Below, in pieces: positions 2,786-33,154 of a stretch of DNA of 64,000 nucleotides. The position numbers and the translations under genes are program-made. The DNA comes from Streptomyces sp. NBC_00490 (GTDB lineage: Bacteria > Actinomycetota > Actinomycetes > Streptomycetales > Streptomycetaceae), in NCBI RefSeq assembly GCF_036013645.1, contig NZ_CP107869.1:1736001-1800000 (forward strand), read 5' to 3'. The stretch's first letter is position 1. Each line of letters opens with the position of its first letter. The notes beneath the pieces are model-generated. The model was not told where the DNA came from and did not search any database. It worked only from the letters and a program-made list of their open reading frames with translations.

Positions 2786-4093
2786 TCAGCCGGAGTGTGC
2801 CGCCTGCCTGGCGAGCAGTGAGCGATGGATCTCGCCGGCCCGGATCGCCGTCGTGGACAGCAGGGTCGAGGTCAGTCCGTGGGTGTGCTCGGTGCCGCCC
2901 TGGAGGTAGATGCCCGCGGTGACGTCGGGGGCGGTCTCCACGCGGTGGTCGCGGGTCACGCGGATGGCGTCCCCGTCGTCCCGGAGACAGACCTTGGCCG
3001 CCTCTCCGAGCAGGGCCGTGAAGTCGCGCGGCCGGTAGCCGGTGGCGTGCACCAGCAGGTCGGCCTCCATGGTCCGCTCGTCGCCGGTGGGAAGGTACTC
3101 GACGGTGATGTCGAGGGCGTTGTCGGCGCGTTGGCTCACCTCACGGATGCGGGAGACGTTCAGGAAGCGCAGCCGCTCCCGGCCGGTGACCTTCTCGCGG
3201 TACGCGCTCGCGTACAGGGACTCGATCAACTCCATGTCGACCACGGAGTAGTTGGTCGAGCGGTGGTAGTCGAAGAGGGACTGTTTCACCTCCGACGGGG
3301 AGGTGAAGTACACGTCCACCGCCTCCGGGTCGAAGATGCGGTTGGCGAACGGGCTGTCGTCCGCCGGGGTGTAGCCGTACTTGGAGAAGACCGCGCAGAC
3401 CTCGGCCTCCGGGAAGGAGCGGTGCAGGTAGTCGACCGACTCGGCGGCGCTCTGCCCCGCGCCCAGCACGACGGCCCGCCGCACGGACTTGCCCTCGGCG
3501 AGGAGCTTTTCCACGCCGGGCAGCAACTGGCTGTTGTGCCAGACCCGTTCGGACAGTTCGGCGCCCGGTGGCACATGGGGTTCCAGCCCGACGGCCACGG
3601 TCAGGTTGCGGGCCCGGTACGTCCTCCCGCCGCAGACCACCTCGAAGCTGGTGACGGCGCCCGAGTCGTCCCGGACCGGGTCGACGGCGGTCACCTCGTG
3701 GTCGTAGGCGACGAGCGAGCGGACCCGCTCGGCGGCCCATTCGAAGTACTCGTGGAACTCGACGCGCAGCGGGAACAGGGTCTTCTGGTTCAGGAAGTCG
3801 ACCAGCCGGCCGCGGTCGCGCAGGAAGCAGAGAAAGCTGAAGTCGCTGGCCGGGTCCCGTAACGTCACCAGGTCCTTCAGGAAGGACACCTGCATGGTGG
3901 CGTCGTCGATGAGCATGCCCCGGTGCCAGCCGAATCCCGGTTGGCGTTCCAGGAAAAGGGCGTCCAGCCGTCGCTCGGGTGGAAGGTCTGCGTTGTGTTC
4001 CGCAATGGCTATGGCCAGGGCCAGATTTGACGGGCCGAAGCCGATTCCGAGGATGTCGTAGGTGCGATCCGATCCCGTGAGCGGTGAGTTCAC
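2786..4093 (-). CDS. L-ornithine N5-monooxygenase (siderophore hydroxylase)
   Basis: A flavin- and NADPH-dependent N-hydroxylating monooxygenase (SidA/PvdA/CchB family). It converts L-ornithine to N5-hydroxyornithine for the hydroxamate ligands. The FAD-binding start DILGIGFGPSNLALA, the LFLERQPGFGWH segment, the NADPH-binding AVVLGAGQSAAE motif and the C-terminal LVHATGYRP motif are all present. With the chosen GTG start the length is 435 residues, normal for the family. That start has GGGAGG about nine bases upstream; an upstream in-frame ATG at 4123 would begin almost inside the iron box and is less likely. It is divergent from the formyltransferase, and both share the iron box at 4130-4148. 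Lysine as substrate is possible, but the formyl-hydroxyornithine A domain favours ornithine. Confidence 0.92.
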   Translation of the reverse strand: MNSPLTGSDRTYDILGIGFGPSNLALAIAIAEHNADLPPERRLDALFLERQPGFGWHRGMLIDDATMQVSFLKDLVTLRDPASDFSFLCFLRDRGRLVDFLNQKTLFPLRVEFHEYFEWAAERVRSLVAYDHEVTAVDPVRDDSGAVTSFEVVCGGRTYRARNLTVAVGLEPHVPPGAELSERVWHNSQLLPGVEKLLAEGKSVRRAVVLGAGQSAAESVDYLHRSFPEAEVCAVFSKYGYTPADDSPFANRIFDPEAVDVYFTSPSEVKQSLFDYHRSTNYSVVDMELIESLYASAYREKVTGRERLRFLNVSRIREVSQRADNALDITVEYLPTGDERTMEADLLVHATGYRPRDFTALLGEAAKVCLRDDGDAIRVTRDHRVETAPDVTAGIYLQGGTEHTHGLTSTLLSTTAIRAGEIHRSLLARQAAHSG

Positions 4094-4129
4094 CGTGGCA
4101 TCGCCTCCCTCAGGCAGCCACATGTTAGA

Positions 4130-4148
4130 TAAGGTAAGCCTTACCTTG
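4130..4148. promoter_or_regulatory. Iron box (DmdR/IdeR-type operator) 1
   Basis: The arms AAGGTAA and TTACCTT are perfect complements around GCC. The 19-mer matches the DtxR-family consensus TTAGGTTAGGCTAACCTAA at 13 of 19 positions. It lies between the divergent monooxygenase and formyltransferase genes, 29-37 bases from each start, so iron repression of both is expected. Confidence 0.8.
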
Positions 4149-4176
4149 CAATGAGGCCGTCCGAGGGGAGCACCGC

Positions 4177-5154
4177 ATGCGCGTCGCCATGTTCGGCTAT
4201 CAGACCTGGGGGCACCGCACACTCCAGGCCCTGCTGGACTCCGACCACGAAGTCGTCCTCGTCGTCACCCACCCCAAGAGCGACCACGCCTACGAGAAGA
4301 TCTGGGACGACAACGTCGCCGAACTGGCCGAGAAGAACGACGTCCCCGTCCTGCTGCGCAACCGGCCCGACGACCCCGAACTCCTCGCCGCGCTGCGGGA
4401 GTCCGGACCGGACATCATCGTCGCCAACAACTGGCGGACCTGGCTGCCACCAGAGCTGTTCGACCTGCCCCCGCACGGCACGCTCAACATCCACGACTCG
4501 CTGCTGCCGGCGTACGCAGGCTTCTCGCCGCTGATCTGGGCGCTCATCAACGGCGAGGCACGGGTCGGCGTCACCGCGCACCGCATGAACGCCGAGCTCG
4601 ACGCCGGGGACATCCTCGTCCAGCGTTCGATACCGGTCGGACCGGCCGACACCGCGACCGACCTGTTCCACCGGACCGTCGACCTGATCTCGCCGATCGT
4701 GCGCGAGTCGCTCGATCTGATCGCCGCCGGCAAGGACGCCGGACAGTGGGTGCCGCAGGACCGCGGCCGGGCAAGTTTCTTCCACAAGCGGTCACTCGAG
4801 GACAGCCGCATCGACTGGAGCTGGCCCGCGGAATGCCTGGAACGCCTCGTGAGGGCCCAGTCCGACCCGTACCCGAACGCGTACACGTTCCACCGCGGAG
4901 AACGCCTCAGGATCGTCGAGGCCTCCGTGTCAGAGGCGTTCTACGGCGGCACCCCGGGCCGGATCTTCATCCGCGAGGGCGACGGCGTGGTCATCGTGGC
5001 CGGCGCCGACGCCCACACCGGCCACTGCCGTGGGCTCGTCGTCCGGCGGCTGCGCACCGAGGACGGCACCGAGTTCGCCGCCACCGACTACTTCCGGACG
5101 ATGGGCGGCTATCTCACCCGGTACCCGAACTCCCGCCCGAACAACGCCGCATGA
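4177..5154 (+). CDS. Hydroxyornithine formyltransferase (CchA-like)
   Basis: A methionyl-tRNA formyltransferase-like enzyme of 325 residues. It would move a formyl group from N10-formyl-tetrahydrofolate to N5-hydroxyornithine, giving the formyl-hydroxamate building block. The N-terminal catalytic domain shows the family Asn-x-His pair in LNIHDSLLPAYAGFSPLIWA (about residues 106-125) and the conserved Asp in the AELDAGDILVQ segment. The C-terminal OB-like domain follows (about 205-310). The start has GAGGGGAG upstream. It is not a housekeeping fmt gene: it lies between iron boxes, beside the N-hydroxylase, and an NRPS A domain in the cluster carries the formyl-hydroxyornithine pocket. Its role is inferred from the coelichelin pathway. 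Confidence 0.88.
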   Translation: MRVAMFGYQTWGHRTLQALLDSDHEVVLVVTHPKSDHAYEKIWDDNVAELAEKNDVPVLLRNRPDDPELLAALRESGPDIIVANNWRTWLPPELFDLPPHGTLNIHDSLLPAYAGFSPLIWALINGEARVGVTAHRMNAELDAGDILVQRSIPVGPADTATDLFHRTVDLISPIVRESLDLIAAGKDAGQWVPQDRGRASFFHKRSLEDSRIDWSWPAECLERLVRAQSDPYPNAYTFHRGERLRIVEASVSEAFYGGTPGRIFIREGDGVVIVAGADAHTGHCRGLVVRRLRTEDGTEFAATDYFRTMGGYLTRYPNSRPNNAA

Positions 5155-5204
5155 CTGACCGTCACATGCGCGTTCGGGCAAGGATCGCGTCCGGAACACA
5201 TTGC

Positions 5205-5223
5205 TAAGGCAAGGCTTACCTTG
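5205..5223. promoter_or_regulatory. Iron box 2
   Basis: TAAGGCAAGGCTTACCTTG matches the DtxR-family consensus at 13 of 19 positions. It lies 53 bases before the start of the siderophore-binding lipoprotein, in the correct place for iron repression of that gene. Confidence 0.75.
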
Positions 5224-5275
5224 CTTTACTGACCGGCGTACCGAGTCTGCCGGCATCTGGCGAAAAGGGATGCAC

Positions 5276-6280
5276 ATGTCGAGAAAACTCCGCACCACCC
5301 TTCTCACGGTCACCCTGGCCGCCGCGCTGGCCGCCTGTGGCTCCGTGGAGGACGACGACCCCGTCTCGTCGTCCTCCGACGGCGCCTCCTCGGACGCGTT
5401 CCCCGTCACGGTCAAGCACAAGTTCGGCAGCACCCGGATCAAGTCGGCGCCCGAGCGGGTCGTGGTGATCGGCAACGGCGGTACGGACGACATCGACGCG
5501 CTCTACGCCCTCGGTGTCACGCCTGTCGCCATCTCCAAGGACGCCCTGAGCTCCGACGGCATCTACCCGTGGCTCAAGGACAGGATCGACACCGAGAAGA
5601 CCAAGCTGCTCGACACGCTCACCGCGGTGGACTACGAGGCCGTCGCCGCCCTCCAGCCGGATCTGATCCTGGCCACCTCGGACTTCACGCTCGACAAGGA
5701 CTACAAGAAGCTCGCCGCCGTGGCCCCCACCATCGGCTACGAGACGGCGTGGGGACAGCAGACCTGGCAGGAGCACGTGCAGGTGGTGGGCCAGGCCGTC
5801 GGCAAGCCGGACGAGGCCGAGAAGGTCGTCAAGGACACCGAGGCCCGCATCGCCGCGGTGAAGGACAAGCACCCGGGCCTCGTGGGCAAGACCTACAGCC
5901 TGTCCATCGGCAACACCCCGGCCAAGATCTACACCATCGCCTCCGAGGAGGACTTCGCCGCCAAGCTGATGAGCGAGGTCGGGCTGAAGCTGACCCCGTC
6001 GGTCACCGACATCAAGACGGTGAGCGGGAGCCCGACCGGTGAGCTGTCCTTCGAACAGCTCGACAAGCTCGACGCCGACCTGGTGATCATCGCGTTCACC
6101 ACGCCGGACCTGAAGAAGGCCTTCGAGGCCAGCACGCTGGTGAAGAACATGTCCGCGGTGAAGAAGGACCACTACGTGGTGACCGACGTCGCCACGATCA
6201 GCCAGCTGCGCAGTCCGTCCGCCCTGGGCATCCCGTGGGCGCTGGACAATCTGGAGACCGGCTTCGCCAAGCTCGACTGA
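5276..6280 (+). CDS. Siderophore-binding lipoprotein of an ABC importer
   Basis: A FepB/CchF-like periplasmic-type binding protein, lipid-anchored outside the membrane, which captures the ferric siderophore for the FecCD permeases. It has 334 residues. The signal peptide ends in the lipobox LAAC (cysteine at about residue 21). The TroA/FepB fold is indicated by SAPERVVVIGNGGTDDIDALYALGV, by LQPDLILATSDF and by the C-terminal LDADLVIIAFTTPDL. The second of two close ATGs was chosen because AAGGGA lies six bases before it. It has its own iron box and ends in a hairpin shared with the convergent NRPS operon. The matching permeases lie 25 kb away, at the other end of the cluster. Confidence 0.9.
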   Translation: MSRKLRTTLLTVTLAAALAACGSVEDDDPVSSSSDGASSDAFPVTVKHKFGSTRIKSAPERVVVIGNGGTDDIDALYALGVTPVAISKDALSSDGIYPWLKDRIDTEKTKLLDTLTAVDYEAVAALQPDLILATSDFTLDKDYKKLAAVAPTIGYETAWGQQTWQEHVQVVGQAVGKPDEAEKVVKDTEARIAAVKDKHPGLVGKTYSLSIGNTPAKIYTIASEEDFAAKLMSEVGLKLTPSVTDIKTVSGSPTGELSFEQLDKLDADLVIIAFTTPDLKKAFEASTLVKNMSAVKKDHYVVTDVATISQLRSPSALGIPWALDNLETGFAKLD

Positions 6281-6293
6281 CAGTGAGGGGGAA

Positions 6294-6330
6294 GGAAGGG
6301 CGGGCCGCACTCGGGGCGGGCCGCCCTTCC
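6294..6330. terminator. Bidirectional hairpin terminator
   Basis: The arms GGAAGGGCGG and CCGCCCTTCC are a perfect 10-bp match, extended inward by further G-C pairs. The hairpin sits in the 57-base gap between the convergent lipoprotein gene and the NRPS operon, so it can serve both. Confidence 0.7.
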
Positions 6331-6337
6331 TCGTTCC

Positions 6338-9300
6338 CTACGCGTCGCGCAGGGCCGCGTCGATCTCCTCGGCCGACATGTCCTCGATCTCCAGGTGGAT
6401 CGCGGCGACCCCCTCCAGCCGGCCGGGCGTCGCCTCCTCGGCGGACAGCCGCTTGGCCATGCCCCCGGCCGTGAGCGTGGCGAACAGGGCGCGGACGGAC
6501 ACCTCGGAGGTGTCGAGGACCTCCCGCAGCCTGCTCACGATGACCGTGGCGAGCACGGAGTCGCCGCCGAGCGCGAAGAAGCCGTCGTCGAGGCCGACGC
6601 GTTCGACACCGAGGACGTCCGCCCAGACCCGGGCCACGACCGTCTCCAGCGCGGTGCCGGGCGCCCGGTGCCCCAACTCCTCCTCGCCCTCCCAGAGTTG
6701 CCGCACGGCACGCCGGTCCAGCTTGCCGTTGGAGGTGAGCGGAAGCTCCCGCACGACGGCGATCCGCGACGGGACCATGTGCGAGGGCAGCACCGACCGC
6801 ACCCACTCCCGCAGTTCCTCCGCGGCCGTGCCCCGCTCGGCGGCCACGGCGGCCGCCAGCTGGACTCCCTGCCCCCGGGTCAGCCCCGCGACAGCCCTGC
6901 GCACGGCGGGGTGCCCGGCGAGTGCCGCCTCCACCTCGCCCAACTCGATCCGGAAACCGCGCAGTTTCACCTGATGGTCGCGGCGGCCGAGGAACTCCAG
7001 GGTGCCGTCGGGCCAGTAGCGGGCGAGATCACCGGTGCGGTACCAGCGCAGGCCGTCCCGCTCGGTGAACTTCTCGGCCGTGCGCACCGGATCGGCCCGG
7101 TACCCGAGCGCCACCCCGTCCCCGCCGATCCACAGCTCGCCCGGCACCCAGTCGGGGCAGTCCCGCCCCCGGCCGTCGACGACCCGGCAGCGCACATTGC
7201 GCAAAGGGGTGCCGTACGGCACCGACTTCCACCCGGCGGGCACCTGACCGCCCGTCACCTCGCAGACCGTGGAGTGGATCGCGGTCTCCGTCGTCCCGCC
7301 GAGACCGGCGAACCGGCACCCCGGCGCCCGTTCGGCGAGGCGCCCCGGCAGATCGGTGCCGACCCAGTCGCCGCCGAGCAACACGACCCGCAGTGAGGAG
7401 AGTTCGCCGGGTGCGAGGAGCAGCATGTCGAGCAGGGGCGGTACGCAGTTCAGGAGGGTCACGCCGTGGGTGCGCACCAGCTCCGCCCACTGACCGGCCT
7501 CGCGCCGGTCGGCGTCGTCCACGAGGACCAGTGCGCCGCCCGCGCCCAGCAGCCCGAACGTGTCGTAGACGGACAGGTCGAAGTCGAGGGCGGACAGGGC
7601 CAGGCAGCGGTCCGAAGGACCCACCGCGTAGCGCTCGTTGAGGTCGTCGATGGTGTTCACCGCCGCCCGGTGCGGCACCTCGACCCCCTTGGGTTCGCCG
7701 GTCGAGCCGGAGGTGAACAGCACATAGGCGGGCTGCTCCTCGTCCACGGTCACCGGTTCCGCGAGGGGCGGGTGGTGTAGCGACACGGAGTCCAGGACTG
7801 CCCGGAATCCCGCGGTGGCCCGGATGCGCTCGCGGCGAGCCGGCGGTTGCCCGACGCCGACGGGGACATAGGCGGCGCCCGCGGCGAGCACACCCAGAAC
7901 GGCCGTGATCTGGTCGGGCCCCTTCGGGAGACTGACCGCGACCGTGTCCCCGGGCCGCACACCCCGCTCCACCAGGTCGGCCGCGACCCTCAGCGACCGG
8001 TCGGCCAACTCGCCGTAGGACAAGGCCCCTTCCGAGCCCCAGAGCAGCGCAGGCGTGTCCGGCCGCTCGGCCGCCCGCTCGAAGAACCCCTGGTGGAGCA
8101 GCCGGTGACTGCGCGGCCCCTCGGTGGAGTTGACCGTCGCGCGGACCGTCTTCTCCCGCTCGCCCAGCAGCGCCGGTACCGGCTGCTCCCAGACCGCCTC
8201 CTCGGTGCCGAGCCGGCTCACCAATGCGTGGAAGGCGGCGAACATGGCGTCGACCAGGCCCGCGGGGAAGGCGTCCTCGCGCACGTCCCAGTTGACCAGG
8301 AGCCCGCCGTCGACCTCGGTCACCTGGCAGTCCAAGACCACCTGCGGGCCCTGGGAGATGATCCAGACCGGTTCCCCGAAGGACTGGCTTACGCCCGCGT
8401 CGAACAGCTCTCCCAGGTTCAGCGCGCTGGTGAACACGACCGGTGCGAGGACCTGTTCGCCCCGGTGCCGGGAGAGGTCGCGCAGTACCTCCACGCCGGA
8501 GTAGTCGGCGTGGGCGGCGTCGGTGTGCATACGGTCCTGGAGGCGCCGGGCGTGCGCGGTGAAGGACTCCTGCCCGGCCAGGTCCACGTCGAGGAGGACC
8601 GAGCTGGTGAAGTCGCCGACGAGAAGGTCGACATCGGGGTGGGAGCCGCGGCGGTCGAACATCGGGATGTTGAGCAGGAAGCGCGCCTGACCGCTGAAGG
8701 CGGCCAGCACCTCCGAGAAGGCGGCCGCCACCGCCATCGCCGGGGTGAGTCCGTGCCGGTGGGCCCGGGCGGTCAGGCGCTGCTTCTCCTGCGCCCGCAG
8801 CCAGTGGTGGCGGCGCGTGACCCGGGTGGGGTCGGCGCGCTCCGCCTCGGGCACGAGCGGGAGTTCGGGTGCGCTGGGCAGTTCGGGGATGCGCTCCTGC
8901 CACCACTTCCGCGAGTCCTCGCGGCTGAGCCGCCGTACGGTGGCGCGTTCGGCGAGGTACTCCGGGTAGCTGGTGCGGATCGGCGGCAGCGGGGTCGCCG
9001 GGTGCTCGTAGAAGTGGGCGAGGTCGGAGAGCAGGACGCGGTAGCTGAGGGCGTCCGCGGCGAGCATGTCGACGTCCACGTGGAGCCTGCTGCGGCCGCC
9101 CGGCAGCAGGGAGAGCCGGACGGAGAAGACCTCGCCGGCCGCGACGTCGAGCCGGGCGTGCGAGGAGGAGTGCCGCAGGGACTCCAGTTCGGCCGCGACG
9201 GTGTCGGCGTCCAGTCCTCGCAGGTCGTTGACGACGGTCGCGGGGCGGGTGAGGGCGGGGAGGATCTCCTGGCGGCCGTCGTCGCCGAAGCGGGCGCGCA

Positions 9301-9763
9301 GCATTCCGTGCCGCTCCACGAGGGCGCGTACGGCGGTGTCGAGCCGCTCCGGGTCCACCCCGGCGCCGTCGAACTCGACGTAGAGATGCGCGGCGACGGA
9401 GCCGAGGGTGGTGTCCTCGCCGCGGCCGATCCGGTAGGCGTGCTGCATGACGGCCAGCGGGAACGGCTCGCCCGGATCGGCCGCCGGAACCGTCATGGGA
9501 GCGGGCTCGGGTTCGGGTTCGGGTGCCGCGCCCGTACGGGCCGTCAGCAGTGCCCGCCAGGCCCGCAGGGTGGGTTCCTTGGCCAGTTCCGCGAACGTGA
9601 CGCGGACACCTTGCCGGCGCCAGCCGCTCGCGATCTTCATCAGGGTGATGGAGTCCAGGCCCCAGGTGATGAGGCTGTCCTCGTCGCTCGGCGGGGTGTC
9701 CGCGCCGAATGTGTCGGTGACCGAACGGAGCAGCTCGTCCGCGGTCGGGGGGTGCTGCGTCAC
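6338..9763 (-). CDS. NRPS: aryl carrier - Cy - A - T (chain initiation)
   Basis: A 1141-residue synthetase. It begins with a carrier domain (about 8-80, WGLDSITLMK) of the aryl-carrier type, expected to take salicylate from the ligase at 29435. Next is a heterocyclisation domain (about 98-520) with FPLAVMQHAYRIGR and the Cy motif D-x4-D in DMLAADALSY. The A domain follows (about 535-1010, FTSGSTGEPKG); its pocket reads DLYNLGLIHK, close to the Cys/Ser/Thr type found beside Cy domains. A last T domain carries LGGDSVLAT. It would make a hydroxyphenyl-oxazoline or -thiazoline. GTG start with GGAGGAACC upstream, 16 bases after the previous stop. There is no thioesterase. It is the last gene of the operon but carries the first-acting module. 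Confidence 0.9.
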   Translation of the reverse strand: MTQHPPTADELLRSVTDTFGADTPPSDEDSLITWGLDSITLMKIASGWRRQGVRVTFAELAKEPTLRAWRALLTARTGAAPEPEPEPAPMTVPAADPGEPFPLAVMQHAYRIGRGEDTTLGSVAAHLYVEFDGAGVDPERLDTAVRALVERHGMLRARFGDDGRQEILPALTRPATVVNDLRGLDADTVAAELESLRHSSSHARLDVAAGEVFSVRLSLLPGGRSRLHVDVDMLAADALSYRVLLSDLAHFYEHPATPLPPIRTSYPEYLAERATVRRLSREDSRKWWQERIPELPSAPELPLVPEAERADPTRVTRRHHWLRAQEKQRLTARAHRHGLTPAMAVAAAFSEVLAAFSGQARFLLNIPMFDRRGSHPDVDLLVGDFTSSVLLDVDLAGQESFTAHARRLQDRMHTDAAHADYSGVEVLRDLSRHRGEQVLAPVVFTSALNLGELFDAGVSQSFGEPVWIISQGPQVVLDCQVTEVDGGLLVNWDVREDAFPAGLVDAMFAAFHALVSRLGTEEAVWEQPVPALLGEREKTVRATVNSTEGPRSHRLLHQGFFERAAERPDTPALLWGSEGALSYGELADRSLRVAADLVERGVRPGDTVAVSLPKGPDQITAVLGVLAAGAAYVPVGVGQPPARRERIRATAGFRAVLDSVSLHHPPLAEPVTVDEEQPAYVLFTSGSTGEPKGVEVPHRAAVNTIDDLNERYAVGPSDRCLALSALDFDLSVYDTFGLLGAGGALVLVDDADRREAGQWAELVRTHGVTLLNCVPPLLDMLLLAPGELSSLRVVLLGGDWVGTDLPGRLAERAPGCRFAGLGGTTETAIHSTVCEVTGGQVPAGWKSVPYGTPLRNVRCRVVDGRGRDCPDWVPGELWIGGDGVALGYRADPVRTAEKFTERDGLRWYRTGDLARYWPDGTLEFLGRRDHQVKLRGFRIELGEVEAALAGHPAVRRAVAGLTRGQGVQLAAAVAAERGTAAEELREWVRSVLPSHMVPSRIAVVRELPLTSNGKLDRRAVRQLWEGEEELGHRAPGTALETVVARVWADVLGVERVGLDDGFFALGGDSVLATVIVSRLREVLDTSEVSVRALFATLTAGGMAKRLSAEEATPGRLEGVAAIHLEIEDMSAEEIDAALRDA

Positions 9764-9779: not shown

Positions 9780-12700
9780 TCAGAAGTCGTCGTTCTCGAA
9801 GTCGTCGATGTCCTCTTGGGTCAGCTCCACCAGCGGGAGGTCGGACGGCGTCAGGCCGCCCGCCGGAGATTCCCCGGCATGGCGTACGAGCCCGTGCAGG
9901 GCCCGCTCCCACAGGGCGAGCAGGTCGGTGGCCTCCGCGGGAGTCAGGAACGACTCGGGCCAGGCCGCCCAGATGTGCAGCCGGAGGCCGTCGTCCCCGT
10001 CGACGGCGACGGCGTTGATCTCCAGCCCGAAGCGCGCGGGTCCCGCGAGAGGCAGCATCGGAGCCTCGGGGGCGAGGTCCCAGGGGTCGTCGGCGGAGGC
10101 CGAGGCGGTGAACCGGCCGAGGTAGTTGAAGGCGACCTGCGGCTGCGGGAGCTTCTCCAGGGGCGCCGAGGTGTCGGGGTTGAGGTGGCGCAGCAGGCCG
10201 TAGCCCAGACCGCCGTCCGGTACGGCACGCAGCTGCTCCTTGACGCGCTTGAGTGCCGTGCCCGCCGCGGGACCGCCGTCGAGCGCCTCGCCGAGGTCCA
10301 GGGGGCCGGGGTCGATGCCGACCGGGTGGAAGGTGGTGAACCAGCCGACCGTGGCCGACAGGTCCACGCCCTCGGCGATGGCCTCCTCGCGGCCATGGCC
10401 CTCGACGCCGACGAGCAGCGAACGTCCCGTCAGGTCGCCGCGTTCCTCGCGCCAGTCGGCGGCCGCCACCGCGAGCGCGGTCAGCAGGACGTCCGGGACG
10501 GCGGCATGGTAGGCGGCGGGCACGGACGTCAGCAGCGGTCCGGTGATCCCGGGCGGGAGCACGAGCGTCTGCTCGCGCTGGGTGTCTCCGGGGTCGGGGA
10601 CCCGCTCGACCAGTGGCCGGGCGTTCTCCGACACCCAGGTCCACCAGGGGAGTTCGCTCCCCCGCTTGCCGGCTTCCTCGCCCAGGAGCCTGCTCCAGGT
10701 CCGGAAGGACGTCCCGGTGCGCGGGAGGGCCTCGCCCGACTGCCAGGTCTCCGCCAGATCCGAGGTGATGATCCGCCAGGACACCCCGTCGACGACCAGG
10801 TGATGGGCCACGAGGAGCAGCCGCGCGGAGTCGGCGAACCAGACGGCCTGGAGCATGCGCCCGGACGCCGGGTCGAGCCGGGCCACGGCGGCGGCCAGCT
10901 CCTCGTGGACGTCCGTGCCCCGCACCTGGCCGAGCAGGTCCTCCGCCCGCACGGTCCCCTCGGCGGGTACCACCAGCCGGCCGGAGAGCCGGGCGCGCAG
11001 CAGGTCGTGCCGGTCCACCACCCTCTGCAGGACGGCGGCCAGGGTGTCGTAGGAGAGTTCCGGCGGCGTCACCAGCAGGACGGCCTGGGCGAGACCGTCG
11101 TACGATCCCGCCGTCCACCGCATGATCGGCGTCAGCTCCACCTCGCCGACCGGCTCGTCGACCGGGCCGGTCTCGGTGCGCTCCGCCGCGGCGGCCGCCG
11201 CCAGGCCCGCCGGGGTGGGGGTCTGGAAGACCTGGCGGGGGCTGATGGCGAGCCCGGCCCTGCGGGCCAGGGTGACCAGACGGATGGAGACGATGCTGTC
11301 GCCGCCGAGTTCGAAGAAGTTGTCGTCGACGCCGACCTGTCGCAGGCCCAGGAGGGACGCGAACAGCTCGCACAGCTGCCGTTCGCGGGCGTCGGCGGGC
11401 TCCCGTGTCGCGGCGGCGGTGCTCGTGGTCTCGGGGGCGGGCAGCGAGGCGCGGTCCACCTTGCCGGAGGGCAGCAGCGGGAAGGCGTCCAGGACGGTGA
11501 GGGTGGCCGGGACCATGTGTTCGGGGAGGCTTTCACGGAGCCATACGGGCAGGTCGGTGAGGTCGCCCGCGGCCAGGCAGTAACCGGCCAGACGCTTGAC
11601 GCCCGGCGTGTCCTCGCGGATCACCACCACCGCCCGCCGGACGCCGGGATGCTGTTCGAGGATCGCCTCGATCTCCTCCAGCTCGACGCGCATCCCGCGG
11701 ATCTTGACCTGGTTGTCGGCGCGGCCGAGGAACTCCAGGGTGCCGTCGCGCTGCCAGCGCACGAGGTCGCCGGTGCGGTAGAGGCGTTCGCCGGGCGGTC
11801 CGAACGGGTCGGCGACCCAGTGGTCGGCGGTACGCCGGGGGTCGTTGACGTAGCCGCGGCCGAGGTAGACGCCGCCCGCGTACAGCTCTCCGGGCACGCC
11901 CACCGGGGTGGGCTGGAGGCGTTCGTCGAGGACGTAGAGGCGGGTGTTGCCGTTGGGGCGGCCGATGGAGACGGCGCTGCGGATGGCGCCGGTGCGGTAG
12001 ACGACGTGGCTGACTCCGATGGTGGCCTCGGCGGGGCCGTACCCGTGGTACATCACGGCCCTGCCGGCGGTCCGGAAGCGGGCGAACAGCTCGGGGGTGA
12101 GCACCTCGCCGCCGCACCACACATGCCTCAGCGACCGCGCCCGCCGGGCGAAGCCGTCGAGTTCGAGGAGCAGGTCGAGCATCGAGGAGACCAGGTAGGT
12201 GAAGGTCACCCGGTGGCGTTCGACGGTGTCCAGGAGGTAGTCGACGTCCCGTTCGCCGCCGGGCTCGGCGACCACCACCCGGCCGCCGTTCACCAGCGGC
12301 AGGAAGATCTCGTTGATGGAGATGTCGAAGCCGAGCGGGGCCTTGAACAGGGCCGCGTCGTCCGTCCCGAAGCCGAGCAGGCCGCGTTGCCACAGCAGCC
12401 GGTGCGCGATGGCCCGGTGCCGGATCATCGCGCCCTTGGGGACGCCGGTCGAGCCGGAGGTGTAGATGACGTAGGCGAGCCCTTCGGGGTCGACGGGGAC
12501 GCACGGGTTCGCGGTGTCCGTCACCGGGTCCCGCAGGTCGACGGCGAGGGCGGGCGGTCCGCCGGGGACGGCTGCGCCGAGCACCGCTGTCAGCCCGGCG
12601 TTCGCGCACACCTCGGCGATACGCCGGGCGGGCCAGGACGGCTCCAGCGGCACGAACGCCCCGCCCGCCTTGAGGACCGCGAGCAGGGCGACGACCATCT

Positions 12701-25721: not shown

Positions 25722-25740
25722 TTAGGTGAGGCTAACCTAA
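25722..25740. promoter_or_regulatory. Iron box 3 (near-consensus)
   Basis: TTAGGTGAGGCTAACCTAA matches the DtxR-family consensus at 18 of 19 positions. It lies 19 bases before the panD ATG and should repress the whole panD-mbtH-NRPS operon when iron is plentiful. It sits between panD and the end of the upstream co-directional hydrolase gene. Confidence 0.92.
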
Positions 25741-25741: not shown

Positions 25742-26554
25742 TCAACATCGTCGGGTGCGGAAGAAGTCGAGAAGCACGCGGTTCACCTCGTCCGGCCGCT
25801 CCAGATAGCCGTAGTGGCCGCAGTCCTTGATCTCCTGGTAGACGGCGCCGGGGACGGCGTCCGCGACCTCGCGGCTCAGATGCGGTGGCAGGATCACGTC
25901 GTCGGCGAACCCGACGACCAGGCAGGCCACGGTGATGGCCCGATAGGCGGCGAGCCGGCCGTCAGGGACCTGGAGGTCCAACTGGGCCCGTGTGCCCGGC
26001 CCGTGGACCGGCGGGGCGAACTCGAAGATCTCCAGCCAGTCCTGCGCCCGGAGTTCGTCGTCCAGGGTGGCAGGCGAGAGGTTCTGGAGCGCTCGCACCC
26101 AGGCCGCGTAGGCCGGGGGCAGGACGACTCCGCTGTCGTACAGGGTGCGTTCGGCGCGGGCCATGGCGGTGCGCAGGGCGTCGGTGCGGCCACGGGTGGC
26201 CATCAGGACGCCCTGGCGCACGAGTTCGGGCCTGGCGAGCATCAGTTCCTGGACGACGTACGCGCCCATGGAGACGCCGACGACACGGCACGGGGCGAGG
26301 CCGAGGTGCTCGATCAGGCCCGCCGTGTCGGCGACCAGGTCGTCGATCGTGAAGCCCTCGGGGCACTCGTCGCTCGGCGGGATGCCCCGGTTGTCGAAGG
26401 TGACGACCCGGTGACCGGCGGCCACGAGGGCGGGCACCTGGTGGAGGTGCCAGCCGCGGCCCGCGGCGCCCTGGCCCATCACCAGGACGACCGGTTCACC
26501 GTGGCCGCTGTCCTCGTAGTGCAGCCGGACTCCGTCGATCTGCGCACTCGGCAT
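25742..26554 (-). CDS. Alpha/beta hydrolase (siderophore esterase or release enzyme)
   Basis: A cytoplasmic alpha/beta-fold hydrolase of 270 residues. The nucleophile elbow is GVSMG (Ser about 96), the acid is probably in the GFADDVILPP segment, and the histidine is in CGHYGYLERP. An oxyanion-side segment VLVMGQGAAGRGWH is present. Coelichelin clusters carry a similar esterase. It could release the peptide from the terminal module, since no thioesterase domain exists in the NRPS set, or open the ferric siderophore after uptake. The sequence does not separate these. It follows the exporter gene by 54 bases and precedes iron box 3. Confidence 0.85.
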   Translation of the reverse strand: MPSAQIDGVRLHYEDSGHGEPVVLVMGQGAAGRGWHLHQVPALVAAGHRVVTFDNRGIPPSDECPEGFTIDDLVADTAGLIEHLGLAPCRVVGVSMGAYVVQELMLARPELVRQGVLMATRGRTDALRTAMARAERTLYDSGVVLPPAYAAWVRALQNLSPATLDDELRAQDWLEIFEFAPPVHGPGTRAQLDLQVPDGRLAAYRAITVACLVVGFADDVILPPHLSREVADAVPGAVYQEIKDCGHYGYLERPDEVNRVLLDFFRTRRC

Positions 26555-26608: not shown

Positions 26609-27910
26609 CTACGACGGCTTGTCGGTCGGTCTGGTGACGGCCTCCACCGCCGCCTTCTCCCCCTCTTGCGCCGACGGCCCGTGCAGGGTCGCCTTCCGCA
26701 GGTCCGGCATGGCCACAGCGAGCGTCGCCACACCGGCGAGGCAGATGACCCCGCCGAGCGCCGCGGCACCGCCCGAGGATCCGAGCGCCCGCGCCACCAG
26801 GCCCGCCTCCAGGTTGCCGACGGAGGGGCCGGCGGTGGCCTGAGCGAGCCACAGGCTGCCGACCCGGCCCTGCAGACGGTCAGGGGTGTAGTGCTGGAGC
26901 AGGGCCCGGCGCAGGATCTCGGAGGCGGTGTCACCGAGCCCTGCCAGGGCCAGGAAGGTCAGCCCCAGCCACAGGTCGGAGCTCAGGCCGAAGCAGGCGA
27001 TCCCCGCGCCCCACACCGCCACCGCGCCGATCAGCGCCCGGCCGGTGTGATGGACGCGCCCGGTCCAGCCGCTGGTCAGCGCGCCGAAGAAGGAGCCGAC
27101 CGCGGGGGCGGTGTAGAGCAGTCCGACGGTGGTGTCGCCGCCGCCGAAGTGCTCGGTGCCCATTTCCGGGAAGAGCGCGTACGGCATCGCGAAGACCACC
27201 GCGCACACGTCGATGAGCAGCAGTCCGGTCACGACCCGGTTGCCGCGCAGGAAGCGCCAGCCCTCCCCCATGGCCTTCAGCGGATGCTGCGCCTCCCCCG
27301 AGCTCTCGGGCGGCAGCGGAGGCAGCGGGGCCAGGAGCAGCAGGCCCACGACGTACACGGCCGCGTCGATGCCGAAGCACCAGGCCACGCCCGGGCCGGC
27401 CGCGATGACGCCGGCCAATGACGGGCCGGCCATGCCGCCGAGTTGGGCGGTGAGGGTGGTCAGCGCGCCCGCCGCCGCGAGCTGGCCGGGGGCGACCAGG
27501 GTCGGGGTGGCCGCCATCATGGCCGGTCCGCCGAGGCCGCTGACGCCGCCCGCGAGGACGGCCGCGACGAAGACGAACCAGACCTGCGGGTCGGGCAGGG
27601 CCGCGTTGACCGCGAGCGCCGCGATCACCACCGCGGTGATCGCCCGGGTGACGAGCACGACCCGGCGCCGGTCGACCCGGTCGGCGAGCACCCCGCCCGC
27701 GACCAGTCCGACCAGCAGGGACAGGCCCAACACCAGGCTCATCAGCCCGACTTGGACCGATGACCCGGTCAGGTGGTAGATCTGCAGGCTCGCCGCCACC
27801 GAGGTGAGGTGGGTGCCGAGCATGGAGATCGCCTGGGTGGCGAACACCAGCCGGAAGTCCCTGCTGGAGCGCAGGGGCGTGACGTCGACGACGACTTCTC
27901 CGAGACGCAC
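26609..27910 (-). CDS. MFS exporter (EntS-like), probable siderophore secretion
   Basis: A 433-residue major facilitator protein with about 12 membrane segments and the inter-helix motif GGVLADRVDRRRVVL between TM2 and TM3. It belongs by appearance to the EntS/tetracycline-resistance-like MFS group found in siderophore loci. GTG start with AGGA upstream, only eight bases after the salicylate synthase stop, so the two are co-transcribed from iron box 4. Secretion of the finished siderophore is inferred from context. The last residues are charged and lack special features. Confidence 0.88.
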   Translation of the reverse strand: MRLGEVVVDVTPLRSSRDFRLVFATQAISMLGTHLTSVAASLQIYHLTGSSVQVGLMSLVLGLSLLVGLVAGGVLADRVDRRRVVLVTRAITAVVIAALAVNAALPDPQVWFVFVAAVLAGGVSGLGGPAMMAATPTLVAPGQLAAAGALTTLTAQLGGMAGPSLAGVIAAGPGVAWCFGIDAAVYVVGLLLLAPLPPLPPESSGEAQHPLKAMGEGWRFLRGNRVVTGLLLIDVCAVVFAMPYALFPEMGTEHFGGGDTTVGLLYTAPAVGSFFGALTSGWTGRVHHTGRALIGAVAVWGAGIACFGLSSDLWLGLTFLALAGLGDTASEILRRALLQHYTPDRLQGRVGSLWLAQATAGPSVGNLEAGLVARALGSSGGAAALGGVICLAGVATLAVAMPDLRKATLHGPSAQEGEKAAVEAVTRPTDKPS

Positions 27911-27918: not shown

Positions 27919-29262
27919 CTAACCCTGGAGGGACGGCGCGACGACCCGCGCCGGTTGCGCGGGGACGACGTAGGGGGCGACGCTGCGCAGTTTCTCGCAG
28001 GTCTCCTCCAGCTCCCGTTCGGGAGTGGACCCGGAGAGGATGCCGGCGCCGGCCCGCAGCCAGGTGCGCCCGCCCTCCTCGAAGAGGCTGCGCAGCACCA
28101 GGGCCGCGTCGAGGCCTCCGTCGCTTGCCGCCATCAGCACCGCGCCACTGTAGATCCCGCGGCGCTCCCGCTCGAGACGGGTGATGCAGTCGTACGCCGG
28201 ACCCTTGGGGATGCCGGAGGCGGTGACCGCCGGGAAGACCGCCCGGAGCACGTCCCAGGCGCTCGCGTGCTCGGCCAGCTCTCCGTGCACACTGGACCCG
28301 AGGTGCTGGACGCTGCCGCGCTGCCGCACGCTCAGCAGGTCACGGACCAGGACCGAGCCGGGCCGGCACACGGTGGCCATCTCCTCCTCGGCCAGTTTGA
28401 CGGAGAGCACGTGCTCGGAGATCTCCTTGGGATCGGCGAGGAGTTCGGCGCGCAGCCGCTCGTCCTCCCGCGCGCCGAGACCGCGGGCGCGGGTGCCGGC
28501 CAGGGGCTGGGTGACGACGTGGCCGTCCGCGTCGACCTCGGCGACGGTCTCGGGGCTGAATCCGACGACGCGTCGGCCGCCGAGGTTCAACAGGTAGGAG
28601 CGCGCGGGGGTGTTGTGGGTGCGGCCGTGGACGTAGGTGGCGACGAAGTCGACCGGGAAGGGGATCGTGAGGGTCCTGGAGAGGATGACCTTCTGGAGTT
28701 CGCTGGTGCGGATCTCCTCCAGTGCCTCCGACACCATCTCCGGGTAGCCACTGCCGGTGCCGGAGACCTCGATGGGCCGGGGTTCGGCGGTGCGGGGGAC
28801 GGTGGGCTCGGACAGCAGGGCCACCAGGGAGTCGAGGGTCTCCTGGTCGGTGCTGCGCACCTGGGCGCCGTTCTGACGCAGCCTCACTTCGCTGTGCGGG
28901 ACGACGAGATGGAGCAGCCGGTCGTCGCCGGCACGGTCCGGGCGGTCGGTGTGAAGGTGGGAGAACTCGAAGGCCATCCAGCCGTAGGCATGCCATCCGG
29001 CCACGTCCATGGCCGCCAACCGTTCCTCCACTTGGCGCAGCGGATGCGCTCCGAGCGGGGTCACCGTCTCGTCGGTCAGCCATCTGGCGCGGATCTCGGA
29101 CCGGTCGACCACGATCTCGCCGAGCGCTCCTCCGGCGAACCAGCAGTCGCCCTCCCGCTCGTACACGACGTACTGGTCGAACAGTCCCGACTCGGCCAGT
29201 CTCGCGGCCAACAGAACGGGATCTCCCGGCAGTTCCGTCTCCGCGCTCCGGTAACGCAGCAA
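27919..29262 (-). CDS. Salicylate synthase (MbtI/Irp9 type)
   Basis: A chorismate-utilising enzyme of 447 residues that converts chorismate via isochorismate to salicylate and pyruvate. Family segments seen in order: KVILSR near the catalytic lysine, NTPARSYLLNLGG, GFSPETVAEV, TQPLAGTRA, DPKEISEH, GSVQHLGSSV, RRGIYSGAVL and TWLRAGAGI. The single-enzyme form, with no separate isochorismatase or DHB dehydrogenase in the cluster, points to salicylate rather than 2,3-dihydroxybenzoate. The TTG start was chosen because GGAGG lies seven bases before it; the nearby ATG is in another frame. Iron box 4 lies directly upstream. Confidence 0.93.
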   Translation of the reverse strand: MLRYRSAETELPGDPVLLAARLAESGLFDQYVVYEREGDCWFAGGALGEIVVDRSEIRARWLTDETVTPLGAHPLRQVEERLAAMDVAGWHAYGWMAFEFSHLHTDRPDRAGDDRLLHLVVPHSEVRLRQNGAQVRSTDQETLDSLVALLSEPTVPRTAEPRPIEVSGTGSGYPEMVSEALEEIRTSELQKVILSRTLTIPFPVDFVATYVHGRTHNTPARSYLLNLGGRRVVGFSPETVAEVDADGHVVTQPLAGTRARGLGAREDERLRAELLADPKEISEHVLSVKLAEEEMATVCRPGSVLVRDLLSVRQRGSVQHLGSSVHGELAEHASAWDVLRAVFPAVTASGIPKGPAYDCITRLERERRGIYSGAVLMAASDGGLDAALVLRSLFEEGGRTWLRAGAGILSGSTPERELEETCEKLRSVAPYVVPAQPARVVAPSLQG

Positions 29263-29280: not shown

Positions 29281-29299
29281 TTAGGTTAACCTAACCTAA
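29281..29299. promoter_or_regulatory. Iron box 4 (long perfect palindrome)
   Basis: TTAGGTTAACCTAACCTAA is the core; extended to 29278-29302 it forms two perfect 11-bp arms, GACTTAGGTTA and TAACCTAAGTC, around ACC. It matches the DtxR-family consensus at 17 of 19 positions. It lies 19 bases before the salicylate synthase TTG. Confidence 0.92.
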
Positions 29300-29413: not shown

Positions 29414-29434
29414 ACAGGCAGGCGGGAGTTGAGC

Positions 29435-31063
29435 ATGCTCGACGGTTGGGTGCGCTGGCCGGAGCCGCTGGCGCGGCGGTATCGGACCGAGGGGTACTGG
29501 GTGGGCCGGCCACTGGACCGGCTGCTGCGGGACCGGGCCCGGCAGGCTCCGGAACGGATCGCGCTCGTGGACGCCGAGGGGAACCGCTGGACGTACGCGG
29601 AGCTCGATCTGCGCGCCGACCGCACGGCGGCGGGGCTGCGGAGGGCCGGCATCGGCAGCGGTGACCGGGTCGTCGTCCAACTCCCCAACACGGACGCCTT
29701 CGTGGTGTTGTTCTTCGGGCTGCTGCGGGCCGGTGCCGTGCCGGTGCTGACGCTCCCCGCGCACCGGGAGAGCGAACTCGTCCATGTCGCCGAGACGGCC
29801 GGCGCGATCGCCCTGGCGATCCCCGACACGCTCGACGGCTTCGACCACCGCCCGCTCGCCAGGGCTGTGCGCAAGGCGGTGCCGAGCGTCGAGCACGTCC
29901 TGGTGGCCGGTGACCCCGCCGAGTTCACCGCGCTCGCCGACGTGGACGCCGAGCCGGTGCCGCTGCCCGAACCGGACCCCGGTGACGTGGCGGTACTGCT
30001 GCTGTCCGGCGGCACGACCGGTAAGCCGAAGCTCATCCCGCGCACCCACGACGACTACACGTACAACGTCCGTGCGAGCGCCCAGCTCTGCGGTCTCGAC
30101 GAGTCCACCGTCTGTCTGGTGGTCCTGCCGACCGCGCACAACTTCGCGCTGGCCTGCCCCGGTCTGCTCGGCACCCTGATGGCCGGCGGCACCGTGGTGC
30201 TCTCCCCCACCCCCAGCCCCGACGACGCGTTCGCGCTGATCGAGCGGGAGAAGGTCACCATCACGGCCGTGGTCCCGCCCATCGCCCTGCTGTGGCTGGA
30301 CGCGGTGGAGTGGGAGGACGCCGATCTGTCCTCCCTCGCCCTGCTCCAGGTCGGCGGCTCCAAACTGGGCGCCGAACCGGCGGCCCGGGTCGAACCCGCG
30401 CTCGGCTGCAGGCTCCAGCAGGTCTTCGGCATGGCCGAGGGACTACTCAACTACACCCGCCTGGACGATCCCGCGGAGCTGGTGATCGGCACCCAGGGGC
30501 GGCCGTTGTCCCCTGCCGACGAGATCAGGGTGGTCGACGAGGACGGACACGACGTGGCGCCGGGCGGGACCGGGGAGTTGCTCACCCGCGGGCCGTACAC
30601 GCTGCGCGGCTACTACCGGGCCGCCGAACACAACGCCCGGTCCTTCACCGACGACGGCTTCTACCGCACCGGCGATCTCGTCAGGGTGCTGCCCACCGGC
30701 CATCTGGTCGTCGAGGGCCGGGCCAAGGACCAGATCAACCGGGGCGGCGACAAGATCTCCGCCGAGGAGCTGGAGAACCACATCCTCGCCCACCCCGCGG
30801 TGCACGACGCCGCCGTGGTCGGCATGCCCGACGAGACGATGGGCGAGCGCACCTGCGCCTACCTCGTCCCCCGCGGACCGGCCCCGACCCAGCGGGAACT
30901 GGCCGCCTTCCTCACCGAACGCGGCGTCGCCGCCTACAAGTTGCCCGACCGCGTCGAACCTACCGACGCGTTCCCCCGTACCTCCGTGGGAAAGATCGAC
31001 AAGAAGGCGCTCGGCCGTCGCATCGCCGAGCGGCTGCGCGCGGAGGGAAGCGTTGGCAACTGA
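29435..31063 (+). CDS. Salicylate-AMP ligase (stand-alone aryl A domain)
   Basis: An adenylating enzyme of 542 residues (DhbE/YbtE/MbtA family) that activates an aryl acid and loads it on the aryl carrier domain. [18 protein letters not shown] is the phosphate-binding motif. The pocket holds the aryl-acid asparagine in [11 protein letters not shown]; the Cys in that stretch is the residue I recall in salicylate enzymes, where DHB enzymes have Ser. The C-terminal catalytic lysine is in [17 protein letters not shown] lies six bases before the chosen ATG; an in-frame TTG six bases earlier is also possible. Its stop overlaps the first permease gene, forming one operon with iron box 5. Confidence 0.92.
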
Positions 31064-32099
31064 GTCCGCCACGGCGGCACTTGGCCGAAAGCCCCCCCGG
31101 CGCCGGAACTCCACCCGCACGCTCGCGGTCCTCGGCGCCCTGCTCCTGCTGCTCGCGGCCGTCCTGCTCAGCCTGGCGGTCGGCTCGCGCTCGCTGCCGC
31201 TGTCCACGGTCGTCGACGCGCTGCTCCACGACGACGGCTCGACCGCGAGCTCGGTGATCTGGGACGTACGGGTGCCCCGAACCCTGGCCGGCATCGCCGC
31301 CGGGGCCGCGCTCGGGGTCGCGGGGGCGCTCATCCAGGCGCTGACCCGCAATCCGCTGGCCGACCCCGGGCTGCTCGGCATCAACGCCGGGGCCGCCGCC
31401 GGGGTGGTGGTGTCCCTCACGGTGCTGGGGCTGACCAGCCTGTGGGCCTCGGTGTGGTTCGCGATGGCGGGGGCGGTGGTGGCGGGGCTGCTGGTGTACA
31501 CGCTGGCCTCGGGCGGACGGGCCGGCGCCACCCCCGAGCGGCTGGCACTGGGGGGCGCGGTGATCGCCGCCGTGTTCACCGGCATCGGCCAGACCCTGAT
31601 GCTGCTCGACGCCCAGGCCCTGGACCAACTGCGGTTCTGGAGCGTGGGTTCGCTCGCCCGGGCCGGCAGCGAGACCCTGACGACCATCGCGCCGTTCGTC
31701 GGCGTGGGCCTGCTGCTCGCGCTCTGTCTCGTCCGGCCGCTCAACGCGCTGGCCCTCGGCGAGGACGGCGCCCGCGCCCTGGGCGCCCATGTGGACCGGA
31801 CCCGGTTCGTCGGCCTGCTCGCGGTGACGCTGCTGTGCGGGGCGGCGACCGCCGCCGTCGGTCCGCTGGTCTTCGTCGGGCTCGCCGTGCCGCACATGGC
31901 CCGGATGATCGCCGGGGCGGACCAGCGCTGGACCCTGCCGCTGTCGATGCTGCTCGCCCCGGCCCTGCTGCTCCTCGCCGATGTGCTGGGCCGGGTCGTG
32001 GTCCGCCCCGACGAGCTCGACGCGGGTGTGGTCACCGCGGTGATCGGCGCGCCGGTGTTCATCGCGCTCGTACGCCACCGCCGGGTGGTGGGCGTATGA
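31053..32099 (+). CDS. FecCD-family iron-siderophore ABC permease 1
   Basis: A 348-residue inner-membrane permease of the FecCD/BtuC family with about 9-10 membrane segments. Family motifs: [55 protein letters not shown], and [15 protein letters not shown], the last facing the ATPase. The TTG start has GGAGGGAAG just before it and overlaps the ligase stop by about ten bases. The stop overlaps the next permease (ATGA). It imports the ferric siderophore with its partner and the lipoprotein at 5276. No ATPase gene follows. Confidence 0.92.
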
Positions 32100-33154
32100 C
32101 CACGCAGACTGCCCCCGCGCGCAGCCATGTGGTCCGCGGCCGGTCCCACCGGTTCTCCCTGCGGGTGGACGTCCGGGTGGTGACGGTCTGCGCGCTGGTG
32201 CTGGCCGCCACCGCGGGCGTCGGTGTCCTCGCGCTCGGCACCGGGGAGTACACGATCTCCCCGGCGGACGTCGTACGCACCCTGCTGGGCAACGGAAGCC
32301 GGCGGACGGACTTCGTCGTCAACGAGCTACGACTGCCCCGGCTGCTCACCGGCGTCCTCGTCGGTGCCGCGCTCGGGCTGAGCGGGGCGCTGTTCCAGAG
32401 CCTGACCCGCAATCCGCTGGGCAGCCCGGACATCGTCGGCTTCACCTACGGCTCGGCCACCGGCGGCCTTCTGGTCGTCCTGCTCGTCGGCGGTACCGGC
32501 GGCCAGGTCGCGGCCGGTGCGGTCGGCGGCGGCCTCGCGACCGCGATCCTGGTGTACGTCCTCGCCTGGCGGCACGGCATCCACGGCTACCGGCTCGTGC
32601 TGGTCGGCATCGGCGTCAGTGCCCTGCTCCAGGGCGTCAACGCCTATCTGCTCGCCAAGGCCCGCTTCACCCAGGCCGCGCAGGCGATGGTGTGGCTCAA
32701 CGGCAGCCTCAACGGGCGGGGTTGGCAGGACGTCCGGCCGGCCGCCCTCGGACTGCTCGTCGTACTGCCCCTGGTCGCGCTCGCCGCGAGCCGGCTGAAG
32801 ATTCTGGAGATGGGCGACGACGTGGCGGGCGGTCTCGGGGTGCCCGTCCAGCGCACCCGGCTGCTGATCCTCGTCCTCGCCACGGCGGCCTGCGCGGTGG
32901 CCACCGCCGCGGCCGGCCCGATCCCCTTCGTCGCCCTCATCGCACCGCAGCTGGCCCGGCGCCTCACCCGAGCGCCGGGCCCCAACCTCCTGGCCGCCAC
33001 CTGTACCGGCGCCTTCCTCGTGGTCGCCGCGGACTTCGCGTCCCAGCGGATCCACGAGACGGCCCAGCTGCCGGTGGGGGTGGTCACGGCGGTGGCAGGC
33101 GGGCTGTATCTGGGGCTGCTGCTGCGCAGGCAGCGCCGGTTGGGCCGGATCTGA
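32096..33154 (+). CDS. FecCD-family iron-siderophore ABC permease 2
   Basis: The second subunit of the heterodimeric permease, 352 residues with a longer basic N-terminus before the first membrane segment. Motifs: LRLPRLLTGVLVGAALGLSG, QSLTRNPLGSPDIVGF, MGDDVAGGLGVPV and FVALIAPQLARRL. The ATG overlaps the preceding TGA, so translation is coupled. Its stop is one base from the stop of the convergent copper-linked gene, leaving no space for a terminator. An ATP-binding subunit is missing here, so a shared or distant ATPase must serve this importer. Confidence 0.92.
   Translation: MTTQTAPARSHVVRGRSHRFSLRVDVRVVTVCALVLAATAGVGVLALGTGEYTISPADVVRTLLGNGSRRTDFVVNELRLPRLLTGVLVGAALGLSGALFQSLTRNPLGSPDIVGFTYGSATGGLLVVLLVGGTGGQVAAGAVGGGLATAILVYVLAWRHGIHGYRLVLVGIGVSALLQGVNAYLLAKARFTQAAQAMVWLNGSLNGRGWQDVRPAALGLLVVLPLVALAASRLKILEMGDDVAGGLGVPVQRTRLLILVLATAACAVATAAAGPIPFVALIAPQLARRLTRAPGPNLLAATCTGAFLVVAADFASQRIHETAQLPVGVVTAVAGGLYLGLLLRRQRRLGRI

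Follow-up and report, generated by a model that had tools for sequence, protein, structure and literature searches.

The 64,000-nucleotide window studied here (positions 1,736,001 to 1,800,000 of contig NZ_CP107869.1, part of the 10.8 Mb genome of Streptomyces sp. NBC_00490) contains a nonribosomal peptide synthetase (NRPS) operon for a siderophore. It is very likely of the cahuitamycin type, probably iron-regulated, and works in a biochemical order unlike its gene order. The four NRPS genes all lie on the minus strand, spanning 25056 down to 6338, and are called here a (21856-25056), h (17489-21859), b (9780-17492) and Cy (6338-9763). Along the operon they read a (beta-Ala), h (hydroxyornithine), b (Ser, formyl-hydroxyornithine and an epimerization domain) and Cy (aryl carrier and oxazoline). 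A 4-base overlap joins a to h and likewise h to b, and 16 bases separate b from Cy, so the four are regarded as one operon. The order in which they would act is Cy > b > a > h. This is the order 6338 > 9780 > 21856 > 17489 suggested by an initial annotation; it is the best supported one, although the support comes from a natural gene fusion, docking tails and acceptor charge and not from the types of the condensation domains.

The same high likelihood is attached to the whole route. The last gene, Cy, would load salicylate onto its aryl carrier and form a hydroxyphenyl-oxazoline with Ser (or a thiazoline with Cys). Gene b would then add Ser and formyl-hydroxyornithine, its epimerization (E) domain converting the latter to the D form, and the acidic tail of b would dock onto a basic finger on the D-accepting condensation (C) domain of a, which would add beta-alanine. 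The basic tail of a would in turn dock onto the acidic finger of h, which would add the final hydroxyornithine and probably epimerize it; h would be tail-less because nothing comes after it. A stand-alone hydrolase would probably free the chain, the hydroxyornithine side chain closing a ring on its own carbonyl. The docking partners, substrates, release and product in this scheme are predictions, while the domains, tails, charges, fusion and C-domain orthology presented below are read directly from the DNA.

That the last gene carries the aryl carrier and the heterocyclization (Cy) domain, as the initial annotation had noted, is confirmed by Pfam and the sequence (ArCP-Cy-A-T, where A is adenylation and T carrier domain). 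The types of the C domains were examined in a tree of 218 C, E and Cy domains, in which references were labelled by the preceding domain in the same polypeptide. The tree took in 14 domains from the cluster loci and sampled 12 E and 6 Cy domains. From the reference loci, N-terminal domains were excluded, as were three domains of unclear context; 49 domains shorter than 330 aa had been removed beforehand. The clade holding the first C domain of b (support 98) takes in 49 of the 56 after-T references and none of the 73 after-E ones, which makes this domain one of the L-acceptor type (LCL), although the neighbouring gene h (C-A-T-E) ends in an E domain. The C domain of a belongs to the D-acceptor type (DCL), in a clade (support 91) with all 73 after-E and only three of the 56 after-T references. 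Both assignments had been made in the initial annotation, and the reverse outcome (21856 as LCL, the first C domain of 9780 as DCL) was not obtained. However, that annotation overlooked that the C domain of h lies within the same DCL clade as that of a. Two DCL lone modules are compatible with b > a > h and b > h > a alike, and speak against the colinear order; C types alone therefore leave the last two steps undecided, and an order deduced solely from them was dropped.

The end of the line can be read from the C-termini. Genes related to those of the window were compared at 36 loci that have an a gene with an adjoining or fused h gene; b comes next in 35 of them, the contig of the remaining one (L046) ending first, a recurrence beyond chance. 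Among 150 Streptomyces genomes, its own included, an a orthologue of at least 75% identity was found in the genome itself and in nine others, one of them partial. A tail motif like PLVSLSQSQLDNVKARWRTR closes the a gene wherever it is unfused (33/33: 21 in Streptomyces, 12 in Pseudonocardiales), and an acidic version closes all 33 intact b genes, three more b genes being truncated. The net charge after LVxL of the motif is +3 to +5 in a and -5 to -18 in b. The tail of a was also recognized by eye in the best 58 of 120 listed homologues of a (P0001-P0058), P0058 having a longer extension. In contrast, none of the 32 h genes that are not truncated was found to carry the motif, L019 with its broken frame being counted among them; h genes mostly stop within 10 residues past the E domain, and four (L014, L021, L025 and L029) extend 13 to 27 residues. 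In L019 (9710-14467, + strand) the h frame shifts near the end of the E domain, which could be a frameshift or an assembly error. In several Streptomyces (e.g., L014, L019 and L020) the acidic tail of b has grown into D/E/F-rich repeats with a net charge down to -18. Judged by eye, the pattern LVxLxxxxLDxVxxxW appears to fit the hydrophobic residues of the COM donor lid and helix; in BacC the donor is described as a C-terminal lid and helix with conserved hydrophobics L5076, I5079 and Y5083 (PMC12402864).

In the same system the donor helix is held by a finger of the acceptor, where E5150 and E5152 contact K5082 (PMC12402864). Fingers were located here by alignment to BacC, the numbering being verified by the letters at 5150-5156; a plain regular expression, replaced by this alignment, had failed at 45 of the 77 cis junctions, in every a gene from Pseudonocardiales and in four from Streptomyces. 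The finger on the C domain of a has a charge of +1 to +4 in all 36 relatives, and that on the C domain of h is acidic in all 36 (-4 or -5 in the 33 unfused genes, -2 or -3 in the three fused ones). As a reference, 74 cis E-C junctions of other NRPSs, in which the partners are certain, were used, the donor charge being taken over the 16 residues before the C domain. Donor and finger charge were negatively correlated (r = -0.44, a value as low being reached in 0 of 10,000 permutations; r = -0.46 on the means of 37 loci). The three positive reference fingers have donors of -4 to -7, matching the b > a pattern. With the eight reference fingers of -3 or less the donor was never below -2, so that pairing the tail of b with the finger of h would be atypical. 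No donor as basic as the tail of a occurred among the 74 junctions. Opposite charges at both joints are obtained only under b > a > h, and an h > a joint would be without a donor. The docking-region comparison called for in the initial annotation, of tails and finger charges, thus favours 9780 > 21856 > 17489.

Independent of charge, a and h form a single polypeptide, with a first, in Amycolatopsis tucumanensis, A. deserti and A. thermalba (L026, L028 and L039). The C domains of Streptomyces and Pseudonocardiales a genes form one clade (support 99), and those of the h genes likewise (support 99). Since the fused genes have a first and the C domains share these clades, the orthologues of a would act before those of h, at least in that lineage. 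The Pseudonocardiales relatives (15 loci: L026-L028, L030-L034, L037-L039, L041-L043 and L045) resemble the window in the order a-h-b-Cy as far as the contigs extend, in the tails and in an identical h code. They differ in that a is C-A-T-C-A-T-E (first A domain Ser-like in 11 of 15, second of the formyl-hydroxyornithine type), b has two Ser-like A domains, and a and h are fused in three. In the fused proteins the E domain runs almost straight into the C domain, which does not conform to the rule that E and C are always linked through a cis-COM. In 11 of the 14 b genes examined from these loci, no match to an HHxxxDxxSW-type motif was seen in the terminal E domain; three of the 11 (L026, L030 and L031) were rechecked with a looser pattern, likewise without a match; the motif-less E domains may be inactive.

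Several observations weigh against the order Cy > b > a > h. The scheme in print for the cahuitamycin (cah) genes runs CahA > CahB > CahC > CahD, with piperazate and then beta-Ala (PMC4757757), that is Cy > b > h > a. The chain would then end in hydroxyornithine-beta-Ala and leave the line at the beta-Ala module, originally proposed to be a linear piperazate peptide and, after total synthesis, preferably a 10-membered lactam (PMC10758118). The C domain of h, being DCL, would also suit a position right behind the E domain of b, and in that scheme every DCL domain does stand directly behind an E domain, whereas in the order proposed here the C domain of h follows achiral beta-Ala. Such a pairing does exist in a madurastatin-like protein of Actinomadura madurae (P0066), probably a madurastatin synthetase: there a module with a beta-Ala code precedes, on one polypeptide, a C domain whose best scores are with those of a and h, together with an h-like A domain. 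The charges are not decisive on their own either. Signs are opposite at 12 of the 74 reference junctions and equal at 29, while a zero occurs at the other 33. A strict requirement for opposite charges in COM pairs was therefore rejected; charge complementarity is a trend, not a rule, and the argument draws on that trend and its extremes. Like-charged pairs such as the published order requires thus occur elsewhere, and the three a-h fusions themselves have donors (-2, -2, -1) and fingers (-3, -3, -2) of the same sign. Because most of the donor helix is lost in the fusions, they show order and not the mode of docking. Nevertheless, the published order would leave the joint after h without a tail while a retains a conserved basic one, would place a strongly acidic b tail against a finger of -4, a combination unseen among the eight reference fingers of -3 or less, and runs against the fused genes, where a precedes h. 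The four synthetic piperazates compared with the natural product (the published structure of cahuitamycin A and three isomers, one of them end-swapped) were all reported to differ from it (PMC10758118). We therefore regard Cy > b > h > a as improbable.

Somewhat less probable still is a line with no fixed end, in which a and h both dock on b and give two products or skip a module. Both lone modules do begin with DCL domains, and kineochelins (PMC13238742) and kasichelins (PMC12305651) are each reported as several congeners. However, the finger charges of the two C domains are opposite in every relative examined, which argues for two distinct sockets. Many NRPS operons are colinear, and this is the sole point for the order a > h > b > Cy, which is already contradicted by the domain content: the aryl carrier and the Cy domain sit in the last gene, the first C domain of b is LCL though h ends in E, and a starts with a DCL domain. 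Hardly any likelihood is left to it.

The order Cy > b > a > h does place a COM-like tail on a gene without an E domain. COM and E domains are stated to co-occur strictly (PMC12402864), and gene b has its E domain, but in a there is none between T and the tail. The carrier of a has the GGDSI motif in 21/21 relatives. When the count was limited to carriers lying no more than 60 residues from the following domain, GGDSI was present in carriers preceding E in 84/84 cases from the cluster loci and 71/72 from the reference loci, and in those preceding C in 0/48 and 10/59, respectively. In a T-domain tree the carrier of a also lies among E-type carriers; its finer placement is too weakly supported (30) to point to a source T domain. 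The simplest reading is that a derives from a C-A-T-E module which lost its E domain on taking beta-Ala. An acidic COM-like tail without an E domain was also seen in L055 (3313-11463, + strand), one of 26 reference open reading frames (ORFs) with T as the last domain found by seeds, so such a tail is not claimed to be unique to this family.

The positions of the A-domain codes and the substrates assigned to them follow the usual specificity-code scheme. The initial annotation left the last residue unassigned, perhaps hydroxyornithine; hydroxyornithine is indeed most likely, the h code DAQEGGLVD being identical in 21/21 Streptomyces and 15/15 Pseudonocardiales relatives. An oxazoline is preferred over a thiazoline because the A domain of CahA was likewise predicted to take Cys although Ser was found (PMC4757757). 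The E domain of h is a putative epimerase. Its motif in the window, HHLVTDAASW, has DA instead of DG; HHxxxDAASW occurs in 19 of 20 Streptomyces h genes, the remaining one having no motif, and the G is retained in 12/12 unfused Pseudonocardiales h genes. D residues were reported for cahuitamycin (PMC4757757). The predicted product is salicyl-oxazoline-Ser-D-formyl-hydroxyornithine-beta-Ala-cyclo-hydroxyornithine, for which C27H37N7O11 and [M+H]+ 636.262 were computed; the formula equals that of cahuitamycin A (C27H37N7O11, calculated 636.2629; PMC4757757).

The initial annotation had placed the cluster close to madurastatin or cahuitamycin. The gene content bears out cahuitamycin, and madurastatin was rejected as the nearest relative. 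Madurastatin clusters do share salicyl-oxazoline, beta-Ala and a terminal cyclic hydroxyornithine, but they are described with Gly, N-methyl-hydroxyornithine, no epimerases and extension modules on one large NRPS (PMC10779116), as against two E domains and other substrates here. The window contains a salicylate synthase, an aryl-AMP ligase (substrate predicted), an ArCP-Cy-A-T starter, a C-A-T-C-A-T-E protein for Ser and formyl-hydroxyornithine, a C-A-T-E protein, a beta-Ala C-A-T protein, a decarboxylase, an MbtH protein, a hydrolase and an EntS-like major facilitator superfamily (MFS) protein. These agree with the cah cluster of Streptomyces gandocaensis in the gene families cahA-J plus monooxygenase and formyltransferase, and in module make-up (CahA, CahB with E, CahC as C-A-T-E, CahD for beta-Ala; PMC4757757). 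The likeness is drawn from published gene descriptions, the letters cahA-J being taken as the gene order. The difference is that the published assembly has CahC before CahD, with piperazate, whereas here the CahD-like protein would act before the CahC-like one. The cluster is of a known kind, but the assembly order in print for such clusters probably errs at its last two steps.

Known structures were compared with this reading. The true structure of cahuitamycin A was stated to be unknown in 2023, when four lactam alternatives were mentioned and a 10-membered one was favoured (PMC10758118); one of the four may be the isomer proposed here. The same study describes attinimicin and oxachelin A as cahuitamycin A isomers that have homologous NRPS modules and carry a hydroxyornithine lactam at the C-terminus (PMC10758118). 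For attinimicin, the order proposed here may have been published already. A search of the literature by titles and the beginnings of abstracts found no revised cahuitamycin structure, though a revision elsewhere is possible. The kasichelin cluster likewise has Cy, beta-amino-acid and hydroxyornithine modules. Its product, solved by nuclear magnetic resonance, ends in a beta-amino acid and a D-hydroxyornithine lactam, and its authors call the sequence KasH-KasE-KasG, against gene order, possible; it differs, as described, in having only three NRPS genes, no Ser/formyl-hydroxyornithine gene, a Thr-derived oxazoline and a beta-amino-acid module that retains the E domain absent from a here (PMC12305651). 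In kasichelin B, with internal beta-Ala followed by the hydroxyornithine lactam, the lactam CH2 lies at 3.56 ppm and beta-Ala at 2.46 and 3.56/3.52 (PMC12305651). The shifts reported for cahuitamycin A are 3.57/3.63, 2.39 and 3.47/3.39 (PMC4757757), and the synthetic piperazates have signals at 2.75-3.25 and 4.3-5.5 (PMC10758118). As far as different solvents can be compared, the shifts of cahuitamycin A and kasichelin B agree with the proposed order. A further point against it is the reported heteronuclear multiple bond correlation of a hydroxyornithine-like CH2 of cahuitamycin A to C-9 (173.9), unlike a lactam carbonyl near 167, unless this was mis-assigned. Taken jointly, we somewhat favour the view that cah itself runs CahA > CahB > CahD > CahC; that cahuitamycin A is the predicted product above rather than a piperazate or a 10-membered lactam, with cahuitamycin E (D + 18 Da) as an uncyclised form; and that the beta-Ala module is a C-A-T-E relic, in which E was lost once the substrate was achiral while the E-type carrier and the COM tail were kept, making it an exception to the COM/E rule.

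The positions of all features are collected in Table 1. The closest named relative of the h gene is that of Streptomyces canus V4I20 (95% identity). Two palindromes, at 25722 and 29281, match an actinobacterial iron box consensus; none was expected in 100 shuffles. The NRPS operon is probably iron-regulated. A heavy-metal P-type ATPase gene (34190-36514, + strand) adjoins the cluster and is probably unrelated to it.

Table 1. Features of the siderophore cluster, with positions counted from the first nucleotide of the window
Feature	Position	Strand	Evidence
Ornithine N-monooxygenase; ORF called to 4222, likelier start ATG 4123 or GTG 4093	2786..4123	-	Pfam
Formyltransferase; would act on hydroxyornithine	4177..5154	+	Pfam
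Siderophore-binding protein, Peripla_BP_2	5201..6280	+	Pfam
Cy gene, CahA-like: ArCP-Cy-A-T; A code DLYNLGLIH (Cys/Ser type)	6338..9763	-	Pfam, sequence
b gene, CahB-like: C(LCL)-A(Ser, DVWHVSLV)-T-C-A(formyl-hydroxyornithine, DINYWGGI)-T-E	9780..17492	-	Pfam, C-domain tree, code
b tail, acidic, COM-donor-like: PLVELTQEDIDDFENDDF	9783..9836	-	acidic in 33/33 intact relatives (3 truncated excluded)
h gene, CahC-like: C(DCL)-A(hydroxyornithine, DAQEGGLV)-T-E, without donor tail; putative terminal module	17489..21859	-	
h C-domain acceptor finger, acidic: LHEDLDE	21629..21649	-	aligned to BacC 5150-5156
a gene, CahD-like: C(DCL)-A(beta-Ala type, IDTTVSLGD)-T, without E domain	21856..25056	-	
a tail, basic, COM-donor-like, shortly after T: PLVSLSQSQLDNVKARWRTR	21859..21918	-	basic in 33/33 unfused relatives
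GGDSI phosphopantetheine motif in T domain of a; usual for T preceding E	22066..22080	-	
a C-domain acceptor finger, basic: RTQRSGR	24829..24849	-	
MbtH-like protein, CahE-like	25056..25274	-	Pfam
Aspartate 1-decarboxylase, CahF-like; putative beta-alanine supply	25278..25703	-	Pfam
Iron-box-like palindrome upstream of NRPS operon	25722..25740	.	
Alpha/beta hydrolase, CahG-like; candidate trans-acting release enzyme	25742..26554	-	Pfam
EntS-like MFS exporter, CahH-like	26609..27910	-	NF007792 above cut-off
Salicylate synthase, CahI-like	27919..29262	-	TIGR03494 above cut-off
Second iron-box-like palindrome, between salicylate synthase and ligase	29281..29299	.	
AMP-dependent ligase, CahJ-like; putative salicylate-AMP ligase	29429..31063	+	Pfam (family only)
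Two FecCD-type siderophore permease genes, ORFs 31053-32099 and 31442-33154 (second start not fixed)	31053..33154	+	Pfam

The published order underlies a cahuitamycin structure that was refuted by synthesis, and the evidence presented here names one concrete isomer with which the natural product could be compared. The results also suggest that the presence of a tail, together with the charges of tail and finger, can help to read the order of subunits in scrambled NRPS operons, as a trend and not as a rule. Moreover, natural COM-like tails without an epimerase would make the docking role of the COM domain testable apart from its proposed scaffolding role.

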